A DNA stretch of 39,122 nucleotides from positions 1 to 39,122 of the forward strand of contig NZ_LGHS01000051.1 in assembly GCF_001202025.1 (NCBI RefSeq). Reading direction: 5' to 3'. The notes under the pieces are model-generated. The model was not told the DNA's origin. It ran no database searches and saw only the letters and a list, made by a program, of their open reading frames with translations. Positions 32,259-39,122 of this stretch are shown piece by piece (within the stretch, counting starts at the first letter, position 1; each line of letters begins with the position of its first letter). A program made the translations under genes and the position numbers. Source of the stretch: Pseudorhodobacter aquimaris. GTDB taxonomy: Bacteria > Pseudomonadota > Alphaproteobacteria > Rhodobacterales > Rhodobacteraceae.

Positions 32259-32284
32259 GGAACCGGGCCCGCTTAGGCTGCGTT
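32259..32284 (+). promoter_or_regulatory. Candidate EcfG-type promoter of dps
   Basis: GGAAC at 32259-32263 and CGTT at 32281-32284, separated by 17 bases, fit the alphaproteobacterial general-stress consensus (GGAAC, about 16-18 bases, CGTT). The motif ends 62 bases before the dps start codon. Spacing to GTT is one base longer than in the two other copies here. Confidence 0.55.
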
Positions 32285-32346: not shown

Positions 32347-32841
32347 ATGTCAGACGAAATGAACGTCACACCCCAAGCGGATAAGGTCAAAACCGGCATC
32401 ACGAAAACCAAGGCTTTGGCGGATGGCCTGACCAATGCTGTGGCGGATACATACCGGCTTGTTTTCAAGACCCATGCCTATCACTGGAATGTTGAGGGGC
32501 CGATGTTCTTCTCGATCCATCATCTGACCGAGGAGCAATATAACGATATGTTTGCCGCCGCCGATGTGGTGGCCGAACGTATTCGCGCCTTGGGGCATCT
32601 GGCACCGATGTCGCTCTCGGCGGTGATGGAGATGTCGGTGATCAAAGACCTAAAGGAAACCCCGTCAGCGCAGGAAATGGTTGAGGATCTTGCAAAAGAC
32701 CACACCACTGTTGCTCGCCGTTTCCATGAGTTGATCACATTGGCCGAAGAAAACAACGACCCCGTTACCGCTGATCTGGCCACGGCACGTTCAGCATTTC
32801 ATGAGCAGGCCGCGTGGATGCTGCGCGCCACATCCAAATAG
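32347..32841 (+). CDS. dps: Dps-family DNA-binding ferritin-like protein
   Basis: 164-residue miniferritin that oxidises and stores iron and protects DNA. The ferroxidase residues of the Dps family are present: H46 in HWNVEG, H58, E62 (replacing the E. coli Asp), D73 and E77 in DVVAERI. The ATG at 32347 follows GGAAGGAA; the longer frame from 32254 is rejected because it crosses the promoter motif. Single gene with its own terminator, lying next to the general stress regulators that probably control it. Confidence 0.93.
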   Translation: MSDEMNVTPQADKVKTGITKTKALADGLTNAVADTYRLVFKTHAYHWNVEGPMFFSIHHLTEEQYNDMFAAADVVAERIRALGHLAPMSLSAVMEMSVIKDLKETPSAQEMVEDLAKDHTTVARRFHELITLAEENNDPVTADLATARSAFHEQAAWMLRATSK

Positions 32842-32893: not shown

Positions 32894-33697
32894 TTATGCG
32901 TGCAGCGTTTCGGTGCTGGCAAAGAACATCGCCTGACTGACGGCCGAACGCACCTGATCCTCGGAAAAAGGTTTGGTGATCAGGAAAGCAGGCTCTGGCT
33001 TGTCGCCTGTCAACAAACGTTCCGGGAAGGCTGAGATGAAGATCACCGGAATATCGGCGAATTGCGCCAGAATGTCATTCACCGCATCAATCCCGGATGA
33101 GTTGTCGGCCAGCTGGATATCGGCCAAAATCAGATCGGGCTTTTCAGAGGCTGCAAGGGTGACCGCCTCGGTACGTGTACGCGCAATGCCGGTCACTGAA
33201 TGGCCCATCTCTGCGACGATGGAACTTATGTCCATGGCGATAATCGCCTCATCCTCGATGACCATTACACGTCCGGCAAGGGCGGCCTCCATCTCTTCCA
33301 TGGCGACCGCGATCAGGTGAAGCGCCTCTTCGGTGCCAACACCCATGATCTGCCCGACCTCGGCGGGGGTGAACCCCTCGATGGCCTTGAGAAGCAGCGC
33401 CTCGCGGGAATTCGGGGTCAGATTGGCCATATGAGCCTGTGCGATAGCGGAAAACCGGGTGTCGGCTTCGCCTGTCGGGGCGCCTGCGCTGGACCAGACG
33501 ATATGGAAGGCGTGGAACAGATCCACGCGCGCATCGCCGGTGATCGTGTCGGTGTTTTCCAGAACCGCCTCAAGCGTAGCGGCGGCATAGCGGTCACCGG
33601 TTTCCTGGCTTCCGGTCAAGGCCCTTGCATAACGCCGCAGGAAGGGCAGCAATTTGCCTATGGTGGCGGCAAGATCGTCGCTCGCGGTATGTGGCAT
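32894..33697 (-). CDS. phyR: PhyR anti-anti-sigma factor / response regulator
   Basis: 267 residues. An N-terminal sigma-factor-like domain (about 1-135, PFLRRYARALTGSQETGDRYAA) mimics EcfG, and the receiver domain spans about 143-260. Receiver residues: E148/D149, phospho-acceptor D193 (LADIQLAD), K242 (TKPFS), plus the family-typical SAFPERLLTG. Phosphorylated PhyR binds NepR and releases EcfG. The ATG at 33697 has AGGAT six bases upstream and gives the usual family length; the frame extending to 33793 crosses the promoter. Divergent from nepR-ecfG through a shared palindromic promoter. Confidence 0.96.
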   Translation of the reverse strand: MPHTASDDLAATIGKLLPFLRRYARALTGSQETGDRYAAATLEAVLENTDTITGDARVDLFHAFHIVWSSAGAPTGEADTRFSAIAQAHMANLTPNSREALLLKAIEGFTPAEVGQIMGVGTEEALHLIAVAMEEMEAALAGRVMVIEDEAIIAMDISSIVAEMGHSVTGIARTRTEAVTLAASEKPDLILADIQLADNSSGIDAVNDILAQFADIPVIFISAFPERLLTGDKPEPAFLITKPFSEDQVRSAVSQAMFFASTETLHA

Positions 33698-33739
33698 TTT
33701 TATCCTCATTAATATCGATGATTGTTTTTTCCCGATTTC

Positions 33740-33777
33740 ATGGGAACCAAACGCATCGTACCGTGTTTGGTTCCCAT
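33740..33777. promoter_or_regulatory. Palindromic bidirectional EcfG promoter (phyR / nepR-ecfG)
   Basis: A 13-bp perfect inverted repeat, ATGGGAACCAAAC (33740-33752) and GTTTGGTTCCCAT (33765-33777), with a 12-base centre. On the plus strand it gives GGAAC (33743-33747), 17 bases, GTTT (33765). On the minus strand it gives GGAAC (33774-33770), 17 bases, GTTT (33752). Each strand therefore carries an EcfG-type promoter whose -35 lies on the other's -10. Predicted 5' leaders to nepR and phyR are about 45 bases each. Confidence 0.8.
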
Positions 33778-33822
33778 GTATATTGCGAAACAAGCGCCGG
33801 ACCAGCGGAAAGAAATATTAAC

Positions 33823-33981
33823 ATGCCTGATAGTGAGCCAAAAGCGAAATTACGCCAGCAAATCGACCAGAACCTGAAGCGTGTCTATCAAGAGGCGCTA
33901 GAAGAGGATGTGCCGGACCGCTTTAAGGACTTGCTTTTAAAGCTGCGTGACAAGGACAAACTGCGTGAGGCGAAATCATGA
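33823..33981 (+). CDS. nepR: NepR anti-sigma factor
   Basis: 52-residue anti-sigma factor that sequesters EcfG until phospho-PhyR binds it. The conserved core LRQQIDQNLKRVYQEALEEDVPDRFKDLLLKL (about 10-41) holds the two helices of the NepR family. ATG 33823 gives the normal short length; the open frame further upstream runs through the promoter. Its stop overlaps the ecfG start by four bases (ATGA), keeping sigma and anti-sigma translation coupled. Confidence 0.95.
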   Translation: MPDSEPKAKLRQQIDQNLKRVYQEALEEDVPDRFKDLLLKLRDKDKLREAKS

Positions 33982-34538
33982 ATGACGAACCCGATAGCTG
34001 TGATCCGCGCGACGAGATTGTCCAGTTCCTGCCCCAGATGCGGGCTTTTGCCATCAGCTTGACCCGCAATGTTCCGGCGGCTGACGATCTGGTTCAGGAC
34101 ACGATCGTCAAGGCGTGGACGAATATCGACAAGTTCAAAACCGGCACCAATCTGCAAGCCTGGCTTTTTACGATCTTGCGCAATACGTTTTATTCAAGCC
34201 TTCGCAAACACAAACGTGAGGTTGCGGACTCTGACGGGGTGCATGCGGGCAAGCTCTCGGTGAAGCCGGATCATGACGGCAAGCTGGCCTTTACCGATTT
34301 CCGCCATGCGTTTGACCAGCTTTCGGCGGAACATCGTGAGGTTCTTATTCTGGTCGGTGCGTCCGGCTTTACCACGGATGAGGCTGCCGAGATGATGGGC
34401 ATTGCCCCCGGCACTGTCAAAAGCCGCACCAGTCGTGCCCGCAAACATTTGGCAGAGCTGTTGCATCTGGTTGACGGGGAAAGTGCCGTTATCGACGGGT
34501 TGGAGGGTCTGGTCCCTCGTGGGATGGACGCTGCTTGA
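33978..34538 (+). CDS. ecfG: EcfG general stress ECF sigma factor
   Basis: 186-residue ECF sigma factor of the EcfG (ECF15) group. Region 2 is at about residues 12-80 (MRAFAISLTRNVPAADDLVQDTIVKAW, then LQAWLFTILRN). Region 4 is at about 110-165 (LSAEHREVLILVGASGFTTDEAAEMMGIAPGTVKSRTSRAR). It directs RNA polymerase to promoters with GGAAC and CGTT elements. Coupled to nepR by a four-base overlap and to the kinase gene by a one-base overlap (TGATG). Confidence 0.95.
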   Translation: MNDEPDSCDPRDEIVQFLPQMRAFAISLTRNVPAADDLVQDTIVKAWTNIDKFKTGTNLQAWLFTILRNTFYSSLRKHKREVADSDGVHAGKLSVKPDHDGKLAFTDFRHAFDQLSAEHREVLILVGASGFTTDEAAEMMGIAPGTVKSRTSRARKHLAELLHLVDGESAVIDGLEGLVPRGMDAA

Positions 34539-36322
34539 TGCCGATGGATATTGCTGCGAAATGGTTTCCGGCCTCGCAGCGCCTTGGCGTTCGGCTGGCA
34601 ACCTTGATGGTTGTGGCACTTTTGCCTTTGGGCATCGTGGCATATCTGCAAACCAGCAATCTGACCCGAGAGGCGAAGGGGCGTTCTGACGAGGCTTTGA
34701 TGGGCCAGACCTTGCGCGCAGCTTTGGGCGAGATCCGGGTGATCAGCCGCGCCGAAGGGTTGGTTGCGGGGGCTGCGGCAAGCTTGCCGACCGTGATCGG
34801 GGACAATGTTGCCTGCGTTGCACAGTTGCGCAGGTTGGCGGGGGATATGCCTGAATTGAGCCTGCTTTCTTTTGTGCCCGAGGACGGGCGTATGACCTGC
34901 TCTTCGAGCGGCGAGAGCTATGATTATTCCGATGTGCCGCTTTTCAAGACGCTGGTTGACGCACGCGAGCCCACGTTCACAATGACAGGGCAGGGACCGG
35001 TTTCGCGTACCTCGGTAATCGGTATCGTGCGCCCGATATTTGACGCGCAGGGCAGCTACCTTGGCTATCTTGGTGCATGGTTGCCACACTCCCGGCTGCG
35101 GATCCTGAAAGATAGTTCCGGTGAGGACGAGCAGAACGGCGTCAACTTTTGGTCGTTCAACCGCGCTGGTGAGGTACTGACAGCCAGCATGGGCTTTGAC
35201 AAGGTTGCAGCGACAGTTCCGGCCACCAGTGATCTTGCCGCTTTTGCCGGCGAAAAAGCGAGACTTTTCAACAGCATTTCGGGTGCCGGAGAGCGGCGGA
35301 CATATGCGACCCTGCCGGTCGTGCGAGATGAGCTTTATGTTATGTCAAGCTGGATCAATCCACCCAATGCCAACCGCAGCTTTCTGGGTGTGCGGCCGAT
35401 GTTGTTCCCGATCCTGATGTGGGTGGCGGGGCTTGTCGTTTCCATCTGGGCGGCGGAGATTCTGGTGGTGCGTCATGTGCGCTCTCTCAACCGATCCATC
35501 GCCTCTTTTGCGCATGGAATGCGCAGGCACCCCAATCTGGTGTTGAAAGACGCGCCGCTGGAATTGCGCGAAATGGCGCAGGCCTATACGGCGATGACCG
35601 ATGATATCATCCGCAACGAGGCAAGCCTTGAAGACGAGGTGCATCAAAAAGAAGTGCTATTGCGCGAGGTGCATCACCGGGTCAAAAACAACCTGCAACT
35701 AATTGCCTCGATCATGAATATGCAAATGCGCCAGGCTCGCACGCCAGAGGCCAAAAGCCTGTTAAAGAGCCTGCAAGAGCGGGTGATGAGCTTGGCGACT
35801 ATCCACCGCGGTCTTTATCAGACCACCGGGCAGTCGGATGTACATGCGCAAGAATTACTGACCGACATTACCCGTCAAACAGTGTCGCTTGCTTCTGCTC
35901 CGGGTCGACAGATCGACGTGGATACGGATTTTGACGATATCCTGCTTACCCCCGATCAGGCGGTTCCGCTGTCCTTGCTGATGACCGAGGCGCTGACCAA
36001 TGCGTTGAAATATGCGCGTGGGGTAGACGGCGCTGTTCCAACGCTCTCCATCAGCTTGAAGCGGATCGAGGATGGCCGAGTGGTCTTGCGGCTGGTCAAC
36101 AGCATTACAGAACCCGACGCCTTGCGTGATGGTGAGGGGATGAATACCAGCACCGGACTTGGCGCACAGTTGCAAACGGCCTTTGCCCAACAGATCGGCG
36201 GTACATTGAGTCAGGGCCGGGAAGGTGATAACTATCGGCTGGAAGTGATTTTCAGGGTGTCGGATTTGATGAAAGCAGAAAACCGCGCAGCTTCTGATGC
36301 GGATGAGGCCGATCCGTCGTGA
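34538..36322 (+). CDS. Membrane sensor histidine kinase, HWE/HisKA_2 type (PhyK-like)
   Basis: 594 residues. TM1 at about 18-37, a periplasmic sensor domain of about 250 residues (dCache-like by size and position), TM2 at about 287-311, a HAMP-like linker, the HisKA_2 phosphorylation motif REVHHRVKNN with His379/380, and a HATPase domain with N-box EALTNALKYA near 488 and STGLGAQL. Such kinases next to phyR usually phosphorylate PhyR in response to stress. Start ATG 34538 overlaps the ecfG stop by one base; the TTG one codon earlier is less likely. The signal sensed is unknown. The stop overlaps the PLD gene start. Confidence 0.9.
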   Translation: MPMDIAAKWFPASQRLGVRLATLMVVALLPLGIVAYLQTSNLTREAKGRSDEALMGQTLRAALGEIRVISRAEGLVAGAAASLPTVIGDNVACVAQLRRLAGDMPELSLLSFVPEDGRMTCSSSGESYDYSDVPLFKTLVDAREPTFTMTGQGPVSRTSVIGIVRPIFDAQGSYLGYLGAWLPHSRLRILKDSSGEDEQNGVNFWSFNRAGEVLTASMGFDKVAATVPATSDLAAFAGEKARLFNSISGAGERRTYATLPVVRDELYVMSSWINPPNANRSFLGVRPMLFPILMWVAGLVVSIWAAEILVVRHVRSLNRSIASFAHGMRRHPNLVLKDAPLELREMAQAYTAMTDDIIRNEASLEDEVHQKEVLLREVHHRVKNNLQLIASIMNMQMRQARTPEAKSLLKSLQERVMSLATIHRGLYQTTGQSDVHAQELLTDITRQTVSLASAPGRQIDVDTDFDDILLTPDQAVPLSLLMTEALTNALKYARGVDGAVPTLSISLKRIEDGRVVLRLVNSITEPDALRDGEGMNTSTGLGAQLQTAFAQQIGGTLSQGREGDNYRLEVIFRVSDLMKAENRAASDADEADPS

Positions 36323-37884: not shown

Positions 37885-37910
37885 GGAACCATAGCCATAC
37901 TGCCGTGTTA
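37885..37910 (+). promoter_or_regulatory. Candidate EcfG-type promoter of csbD
   Basis: GGAAC at 37885-37889, a 17-base spacer and GTTA at 37907-37910 repeat the geometry of the phyR/nepR promoter. The motif ends 53 bases before the csbD start codon. Confidence 0.65.
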
Positions 37911-37963: not shown

Positions 37964-38161
37964 ATGAATATGGATCAAATCAAAGGCAAGTGGAAGCAGA
38001 TCAAGGGCGCCGCAAAAGAGAAATGGGGCGAGCTGACAGATGACGAGCTTGACCAGATCGAAGGTAACCGTGACCAACTGGTTGGTAAGGTGCAAGAACG
38101 CTATGGCCGCTCCAAGGAGCAGGCAGAACAGGAAGTGGATGAGTTCCTCAACAAATCCTGA
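37964..38161 (+). CDS. csbD: CsbD-family stress protein
   Basis: 65-residue hydrophilic protein of the CsbD family. Typical sequence MNMDQIKGKWKQIKGAAKEKWG at the N-terminus, then DELDQIEGNRDQLVGKVQERYG. CsbD proteins accumulate in general stress responses in many bacteria; the molecular role is not known. The ATG at 37964 follows AAGGAGAAAG. Own EcfG-type promoter and own terminator, so it is a single-gene member of the regulon. Confidence 0.93.
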   Translation: MNMDQIKGKWKQIKGAAKEKWGELTDDELDQIEGNRDQLVGKVQERYGRSKEQAEQEVDEFLNKS

Positions 38162-38191
38162 TCTCGTGTTTTTCTAACGTGAATATTTGGA

Positions 38192-38226
38192 ATGGCCCCC
38201 GCATCCAAAAGAGATGCGGGGGCCAT
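38192..38226 (+). terminator. Terminator of csbD
   Basis: Perfect 14-bp stem ATGGCCCCCGCATC/GATGCGGGGGCCAT (38192-38205 with 38213-38226) and a 7-base loop, 30 bases after the csbD stop. The T-tract after it is short (TTTAC). Confidence 0.8.
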
Positions 38227-38247
38227 TTACTTTGCAGATGGTACGAT

Positions 38248-39122
38248 GGTAATCTCCCCATTTTTAATGGGGTCCAGCCATAGAATTCATGCGGCTGTTT
38301 TCAATTTCATTGCGGGAGTTATGCCGCCGATGCCCCGCTGTCCGGCAACGGTTTGCAAGCAAACCGTGAGAGGAATGTTGGGCCGCTCGTTGTTGTAAGT
38401 CCAGAGCCATTCAGTCGCCTGGTCTTGTGCCTCCTCAATCGTTTCGAAGATGTATTGTCCCAGCCATTCGCCGCGAACGGTGCGATTATAGCGTTCGATA
38501 TAGGCGTTTTGCTGAGGCTTGCCCGGCTGGATGTATTCGAGCCGCACATTGTGTTTTTCAGCCCATTCCATAAGCTTTCCACTCACATATTCTGGGCCGT
38601 TGTCGACTCGAATTGCCTGAGGTTGTCCGCGCCATTCGATGATCTGGTTTAAGCTTCTGACAACTCTCTCTGCGGGCAGCGAGAAGTCCACTTCAATACA
38701 TAAGCCTTCACGATTAAAGTCATCCAGCACGTTCAATGTCCTGATCGAACGCCCATCTGCGAGCTGATCAGCCATGAAATCCATCGACCATGTCTCATTG
38801 GGTCTGTCAGGCACAGCCAATGGCTCGGGTTTATCACGCTTCAGGCGCTTCTTTGGCTTGATCCGCAGGTTCAGCTCCAGTTCACAGTAGATCCGGTAAA
38901 CGCGTTTGTGGTTCCAGCCATAGCCTTGGACGTTGCGCAGATACAAAAAACATAGGCCAAAGCCCAGGTTCGCTTATTCTCGGTCAACCGTTCCAGCCAA
39001 GCGGCGATCTCCTCGTTCTCGTCGCTCAGGATTGGGCGTACCGGTAGCACGTCTCGCTGATCTCAAACGCACGGCAAGCCAACGCAATGCTGACCCCGTT
39101 CTGCGCGACCGCATTCCTGGCC
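38248..39122 (-). mobile_element. IS3-family insertion sequence, right copy, cut by window end
   Basis: Inverted copy of the element at 202-1435; 38248 corresponds to 1435 and 39122 to 561. All positions I compared agree, including both frameshifts and the 39-base insertion. The one difference I found is at 39117 (C here, where the left copy predicts A), six bases from the window end. The terminal repeat begins GGTAATCTCCCC at 38248, 21 bases after the csbD terminator. Confidence 0.92.
38287..39122 (-). pseudogene. IS3-family transposase OrfB, frameshifted, partial
   Basis: Same protein pieces as the left copy. The intact catalytic section spans 38287-38946 on the minus strand ([20 protein letters not shown]). 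Upstream of it the same two homopolymer single-base losses put the N-terminal pieces in other frames. The 5' part and OrfA lie beyond the window. Confidence 0.75.

Follow-up and report, generated by a model that had tools for sequence, protein, structure and literature searches.

The intergenic region between phyR and nepR-ecfG of Pseudorhodobacter aquimaris contains a palindrome that we interpret, with a probability of about 0.85, as a pair of EcfG-dependent promoters that face each other and interleave within 32 bp. Two opposed EcfG promoters had been proposed in an initial annotation of the same DNA, and this proposal is well supported: -35 and -10 elements are conserved on both strands, the 16/17 spacer is coupled between the two promoters, and the reverse arm is missing in all six loci in which no divergent phyR was detected. 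The arrangement is a conserved variant of bidirectional promoters. In what follows, the window is the whole stretch of DNA that was analyzed (39,122 nucleotides; contig NZ_LGHS01000051.1).

The phyR/nepR-ecfG locus of the window

The genes around the palindrome are those of a phyR/nepR-ecfG stress locus, with a PhyR carrying sigma-like and receiver domains, NepR, an ECF sigma factor, and phyR in divergent orientation (Table 1). By its partners NepR and PhyR, the ECF sigma factor is EcfG. The start of phyR was picked by eye, with GAGGA upstream; the longest phyR open reading frame (32894-33793, minus strand) begins at a TTG at 33793 and runs across the palindrome. Because EcfG-type promoter matches flank the phyR-nepR-ecfG-kinase cluster on both sides, the region resembles a small stress-response island.

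Table 1. Features in and around the palindrome (window coordinates)
Feature	Position	Strand	Elements or evidence
EcfG-type promoter match	32259-32284	+	GGAAC-N17-CGTT; precedes ferritin-like (Dps-like) gene at 32347
phyR, anti-anti-sigma response regulator	32894-33697	-	PF22029, PF22233, PF00072
Palindrome	33739-33778	.	14-bp perfect arms, 12-nt centre; contains both predicted EcfG promoters
Predicted nepR-ecfG promoter	33743-33767	+	GGAAC-N16-TGTT; -35 33743-33747, -10 33764-33767
Predicted phyR promoter	33750-33774	-	GGAAC-N16-CGTT; -35 33774-33770, -10 33753-33750
nepR, anti-sigma factor	33823-33981	+	PF18557, 1.4e-14
ecfG, ECF sigma factor	33978-34538	+	PF04542, PF08281
HWE/HisKA2 histidine kinase	34535-36322	+	PF07568, PF07536
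EcfG-type promoter match	37885-37909	+	GGAAC-N16-TGTT; precedes CsbD gene at 37964; -10 same as that of nepR

Direct reading of the palindrome gives CATGGGAACCAAAC GCATCGTACCGT GTTTGGTTCCCATG (left arm, centre, and right arm). The initial annotation had described a perfect inverted repeat with 13-bp arms at 33740-33777; the repeat is indeed perfect, and an outer C/G pair extends its arms to 14 bp. The 12-base centre and the divergence of phyR from nepR-ecfG were confirmed by direct reading and Pfam. The window has two perfect inverted repeats with arms of at least 14 bp and a loop of at most 40, of which the palindrome is one. The second (38191-38227, 15-bp arms) adjoins an open reading frame on the minus strand (38287-38946) that appears transposase-like by eye, and this repeat is perhaps the end of an insertion sequence.

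Elements and register of the two predicted promoters

On each strand the palindrome reads GGAAC, 17 bases, and GTTT, at 33743-33768 (plus) and 33774-33749 (minus). The annotation had these letters right; set against the EcfG consensus, the fit is N16-CGTT for phyR and N16-TGTT for nepR. GGAAC-N16-CGTT is a published EcfG motif. The pattern of an EcfG (ECF15) promoter, GGAAC with a CGTT-type -10 at 16-17 bp, was found in both directions, exactly for phyR and with one mismatch (TGTT) for nepR. As the -10 of nepR, TGTT in place of CGTT occurs in 12 of 136 family loci and counts against the two-promoter reading. Taken alone, the bare pattern is unremarkable: GGAAC-N16-18-GTTT matched twice in the window versus 0.84 expected, a number equalled by 25 of 100 shuffles. 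The overlapping pair is remarkable: GGAACNNAACN{8,18}GTTNNGTTCC has a single match in the 3.8-Mb genome, and reversing the pattern as a control gave none.

The two promoters had been said to overlap completely, with the -35 of one on the -10 of the other. As wholes they do overlap, but their elements have no bases in common: bases 33748-33749 (C-A) lie between the plus-strand -35 and the opposing -10. Each arm would be built as GGAACC-n-AACG(C), in which the -35 of one promoter is followed by two bases and then by the reverse complement of the other's -10. A single -10 serving both strands, as in sigma70 bidirectional promoters, was not found; the -10s of phyR and nepR are distinct, with near ends at 33753 and 33764 and ten bases between them. 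Judged from the position of the elements, transcription would start at about A33776 on the plus strand and at the mirror A at 33741 on the minus strand, approximately 35 bp apart.

Conservation of the layout in the family

A search for the EcfG protein in 394 genomes of the family found matches in 189. The loci taken were the best-scoring 150 of these matches, including the window's own, so that the sample is biased toward loci resembling that of the window. Six Rhodobacterales relatives were added (Gemmobacter, Sedimentitalea, two Sulfitobacter, Heliomarina, and Phaeobacter; the order was looked up for two). After removal of five entries that were re-reads or duplicates and of a Chitinophagaceae match that was unrelated, the set comprised 153 loci, 147 of which had a divergent phyR. 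Among these best-scoring family matches and relatives, GGAAC...GTTCC spanning 31-34 bp was present in 137 of the 147 divergent loci. The span was 32 bp in 79, 33 bp in 52, 31 bp in 4, and 34 bp in 1 of 136 loci; together with L039, which has 32 bp, 132 of 137 loci span 32 or 33 bp. One further locus (L121) has the layout with one mismatch, and nine of the 147 lack it, among them three in which the span is 27 bp. Each of the six relatives carries the layout, which recurs in considerably more than 100 genera within one family.

An alignment of the phyR/nepR region across Rhodobacteraceae had been suggested as a check, and both orientations proved to be conserved. The annotation had also considered the full symmetry unusual. 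This is not true of the layout, which is the rule in the family, but it is true of the perfection of the arms, since perfect arms of at least 14 bp occur in 3 of 136 family loci, the window included, and the median perfect arm is 7 bp. In six loci the stretch retrieved showed no divergent phyR; none of these had the 31-34-bp layout, and five retained the forward GGAAC-N16/17-NGTT.

A looser pattern matched 379 of the 394 genomes and was of no use as a test; a strict pattern was used instead. It matched in 24 of 120 family genomes, once in each, and the reversed control gave no match. All 24 matches were at the phyR/ecfG locus, 22 beside matches of the EcfG search and two between phyR and ecfG. 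Within these 120 genomes the strict layout is therefore confined to that locus; the pattern reaches under half of the 55 genomes among them that have an ecfG match.

Aligned 32-mers have the form GGAACCAAACGC-n8-GCGTTTGGTTCC, and the 33-mers are identical except for n9. The conserved columns are GGAACCnAACGC and their mirror image, with weaker inner arm ends; the centre (8-9 bp), which takes up the extra base of the 33-mers, holds 0-0.3 bits. The sample was chosen by GGAAC and GTTCC, which are therefore invariant; the -10 columns played no part in the choice. Their conservation beside the -35 indicates that each arm consists of a -35 and the reversed -10 of the partner. NGTT lay at a suitable distance in 129 of 136 loci for nepR, in 127 for phyR, and in 121 for both; CGTT is the -10 of nepR in 88 and of phyR in 101. 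The best spacers were 16/16 in 54 of the 79 32-mers and 17/17 in 41 of the 52 33-mers. As the spacers are coupled in this way, one central base alters both of them.

In this set, preselected for spans of 31-34 bp, the register was 32-33 in 131 of 136 loci (96%), compared to a mean of 12% when positions were permuted among loci. Only 21 of 27,200 shuffled regions matched; the permutation and shuffle controls preserve composition and ignore relatedness. The 131 loci were placed on a quick PhyR tree, where switching between 32 and 33 took at least 28 steps; shuffled labels needed 41 on average. Gain or loss of the palindrome took 7 changes on the phyR tree, with L039 counted as lacking it.

Covariation of the arms was also considered as a sign of template-switch homogenization or of a dimeric binder. 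At position 7 the arms were complementary in 77 loci versus 62 expected (z = 3.45 by permutation), with z values of 1.3 and 2.4 within the 32-mers and 33-mers, and several other arm positions had permutation p values of 0.02-0.05, uncorrected for multiple tests. CGTT was associated between the two -10s (73/15/28/20; Fisher p = 0.0036). On independent tree pairs neither signal was significant; among the arm positions listed there, position 7 had 13 supported pairs and a median p of 0.45. The covariation fades in this comparison and is suggestive only.

Predicted promoter layouts in other alphaproteobacterial families

In the wider class, NepR was found in 60 of 385 genomes. The set from outside the family comprised 66 loci (L160-L229 minus four of the family) and was scanned for promoters with one mismatch permitted and no shuffle control. 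A phyR divergent within 600 bp was present in 35 of the 66 loci, and 23 loci had promoter matches on both strands. By this one-mismatch scan, the commonest layout was back-to-back with the -35s 6-9 bp apart, seen in 12 of the 23 loci from 8 family codes (L160, L168, L170, L171, L173, L174, L177, L178, L183, L188, L195, and L197). Eight of the 12 have a gap of 8 bp, and several have a T-tract directly after GGAAC. L183 has a second, equally good match at 47 bp, and three of the 12 also have a poorer 27-bp alternative. The remaining 11 loci were back-to-back at a wider distance of 22-88 bp (5), interleaved at 32 bp (4), interleaved at 27 bp (1), or convergent (1). Three of the interleaved 32-bp loci belong to one genus of family code f42 and the fourth, with one mismatch, to f149.

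The 27-bp register was noted at L163, L166, L180, and L224 and, in the family set, at L055, L098, and L143. Here the -10 of one strand forms part of the complement of the other strand's -35, so that the description of a -35 lying on a -10 comes closer to the truth for this rarer register than for that of 32/33 bp. Three f13 loci have a 27-bp site; the divergent open reading frame of L163 and L166 resembles, by eye, a sensor kinase and not phyR. These cases weigh little, because GGAAC-N17-GTTCC fits both promoters almost by definition.

Alternative explanations

The palindrome might instead be the operator of a dimeric transcription factor, a reading that we consider very unlikely. The perfect arms of the window reach beyond the promoter elements (outer CATG), and the excess of arm complementarity at position 7 is a weak point in the same direction. 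However, that excess loses significance on independent tree pairs, the outer extension is not conserved, and the columns that are conserved belong to two EcfG promoters; half-sites of fixed spacing conserved past the promoter elements were not found. The distance between the half-sites has drifted repeatedly between 32 and 33 bp, which is unexpected for a dimeric repressor site and expected from an EcfG spacer of 16-17, and interleaved promoters therefore fit the data where a repressor site does not. It also seems improbable that just one of the two orientations is functional, with the opposite arm being a relic or symmetric by chance. Of the two -10s in the window, that of nepR is the weaker, and nepR also has the lower count of CGTT in the family; yet both -10s are NGTT in 121 of the 136 aligned loci, the reverse arm is missing wherever no divergent phyR was detected, and the promoter match before csbD has a TGTT -10 as well. 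An RNA hairpin, terminator, or attenuator is barely credible. The 14-bp stem and 12-nt loop could fold as RNA, but the predicted starts would leave the palindrome out of both transcripts, and an Rfam search at gathering scores found no match.

A different kind of alternative concerns why two interleaved promoters persist. A shift or a central indel would harm both of them, and the layout could be kept by this evolutionary lock-in, with exclusive occupancy having no regulatory role. We place this explanation somewhat short of even odds; it competes with the functional step proposed below and not with the two-promoter reading. In its favor, the register tracks the EcfG spacer tolerance of 16-17, the palindrome was gained or lost few times on the phyR tree, and E. 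coli bidirectional promoters are described as free of interference at basal activity (PMC12825309). Against it stand the 32-bp register in f42 and f149 and the back-to-back pairs of eight family codes, which are packed too. Both kinds of cases may result from common descent or transfer.

Relation to known systems and a possible role

In Alphaproteobacteria generally, phyR and nepR-ecfG are both said to be EcfG controlled (PMC8103513, PMC4814048), and the locus of the window resembles the divergent locus described there in gene content, orientation, and EcfG-type promoters on both units. It differs from the commonest arrangement outside the family, which is back-to-back. In passages of the open-licence literature, we found no description of the promoters of this locus as overlapping, symmetric, or palindromic. 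Bidirectional sigma70 promoters are likewise reported to have pseudo-symmetric DNA on which the polymerase binds either way, with divergent transcripts and exclusive binding (PMC12825309, PMC10268837). There the symmetric element is a common -10 and starts lie mostly 18 bp apart (7-25 by definition), whereas here it is complete ECF promoters, with their -35s, that interleave, and the expected starts are farther apart.

According to our model, EcfG-RNA polymerase bound one way would produce the phyR mRNA and, bound the other way, the nepR-ecfG mRNA; from the motifs, we infer that both promoters fire. Each start would lie just outside the partner's -35, so neither transcript would run through the partner promoter as the two diverge, and binding and opening would be the only steps open to interference. 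A polymerase in one orientation would cover the opposing promoter. Occupancy by one polymerase at a time, as the annotation had supposed, is likely from geometry, and opposing polymerases are stated to be unable to bind together at sigma70 bidirectional promoters (PMC12825309). For five such promoters of E. coli, basal firing was described as too low for competition, but one side, if strongly activated, could repress its counterpart (PMC12825309). EcfG promoters under stress might reach this regime. A precedent for repression by an ECF polymerase is the hrpJ/hrpL region, where the polymerase with HrpL at one divergent promoter represses the opposite direction (PMC5263251); that direction is sigma54 dependent, whereas here the same ECF sigma would serve both.

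Exclusion would matter for output, namely for how much PhyR is made relative to NepR-EcfG, once EcfG becomes abundant, and ecfG feedback would be tied to PhyR output, as had been suggested. PhyR on one side and NepR and EcfG on the other would compete for the single polymerase site of a master stress switch. Possibly, though we are doubtful, the layout was selected as a device by which promoter strengths set the ratio of PhyR to NepR plus EcfG in cis, whatever the EcfG level. Such a ratio is plausible because the behavior of the sigmaB network is said to be set by the rates at which sigma, anti-sigma, and anti-anti-sigma are made relative to one another (PMC5207722); there the partners share an operon, whereas here the ratio would come from competition between two orientations. 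If this holds, the partner switch would stay balanced during positive feedback, and the closely spaced back-to-back pairs elsewhere would achieve this exclusion in a different way, a heat-shock holoenzyme being quoted as covering DNA as far as -60 (PMC5263251). The family layout and the commonest layout elsewhere offer a natural comparison for whether promoter geometry sets the protein ratios of a partner switch. Were competition irrelevant, the palindrome would still be a clear case of two promoters bound together by a common spacer.

In Rhodobacter sphaeroides, ecfG (RSP_1272) mRNA is reported to rise only in membrane stress and in a PhyR-dependent manner, and phyR mRNA not to rise in that stress but in response to singlet oxygen, superoxide, and diamide (PMC5830050). 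These mRNAs suggest that phyR and ecfG are not simply coupled there. In the same report, the promoter of nepR-ecfG is located opposite phyR coding sequence (PMC5830050). This could reflect an over-long phyR annotation, since the longest phyR open reading frame of the window also crosses the palindrome. With its TTG start beyond the palindrome, automatic annotation could likewise place the promoter inside phyR.
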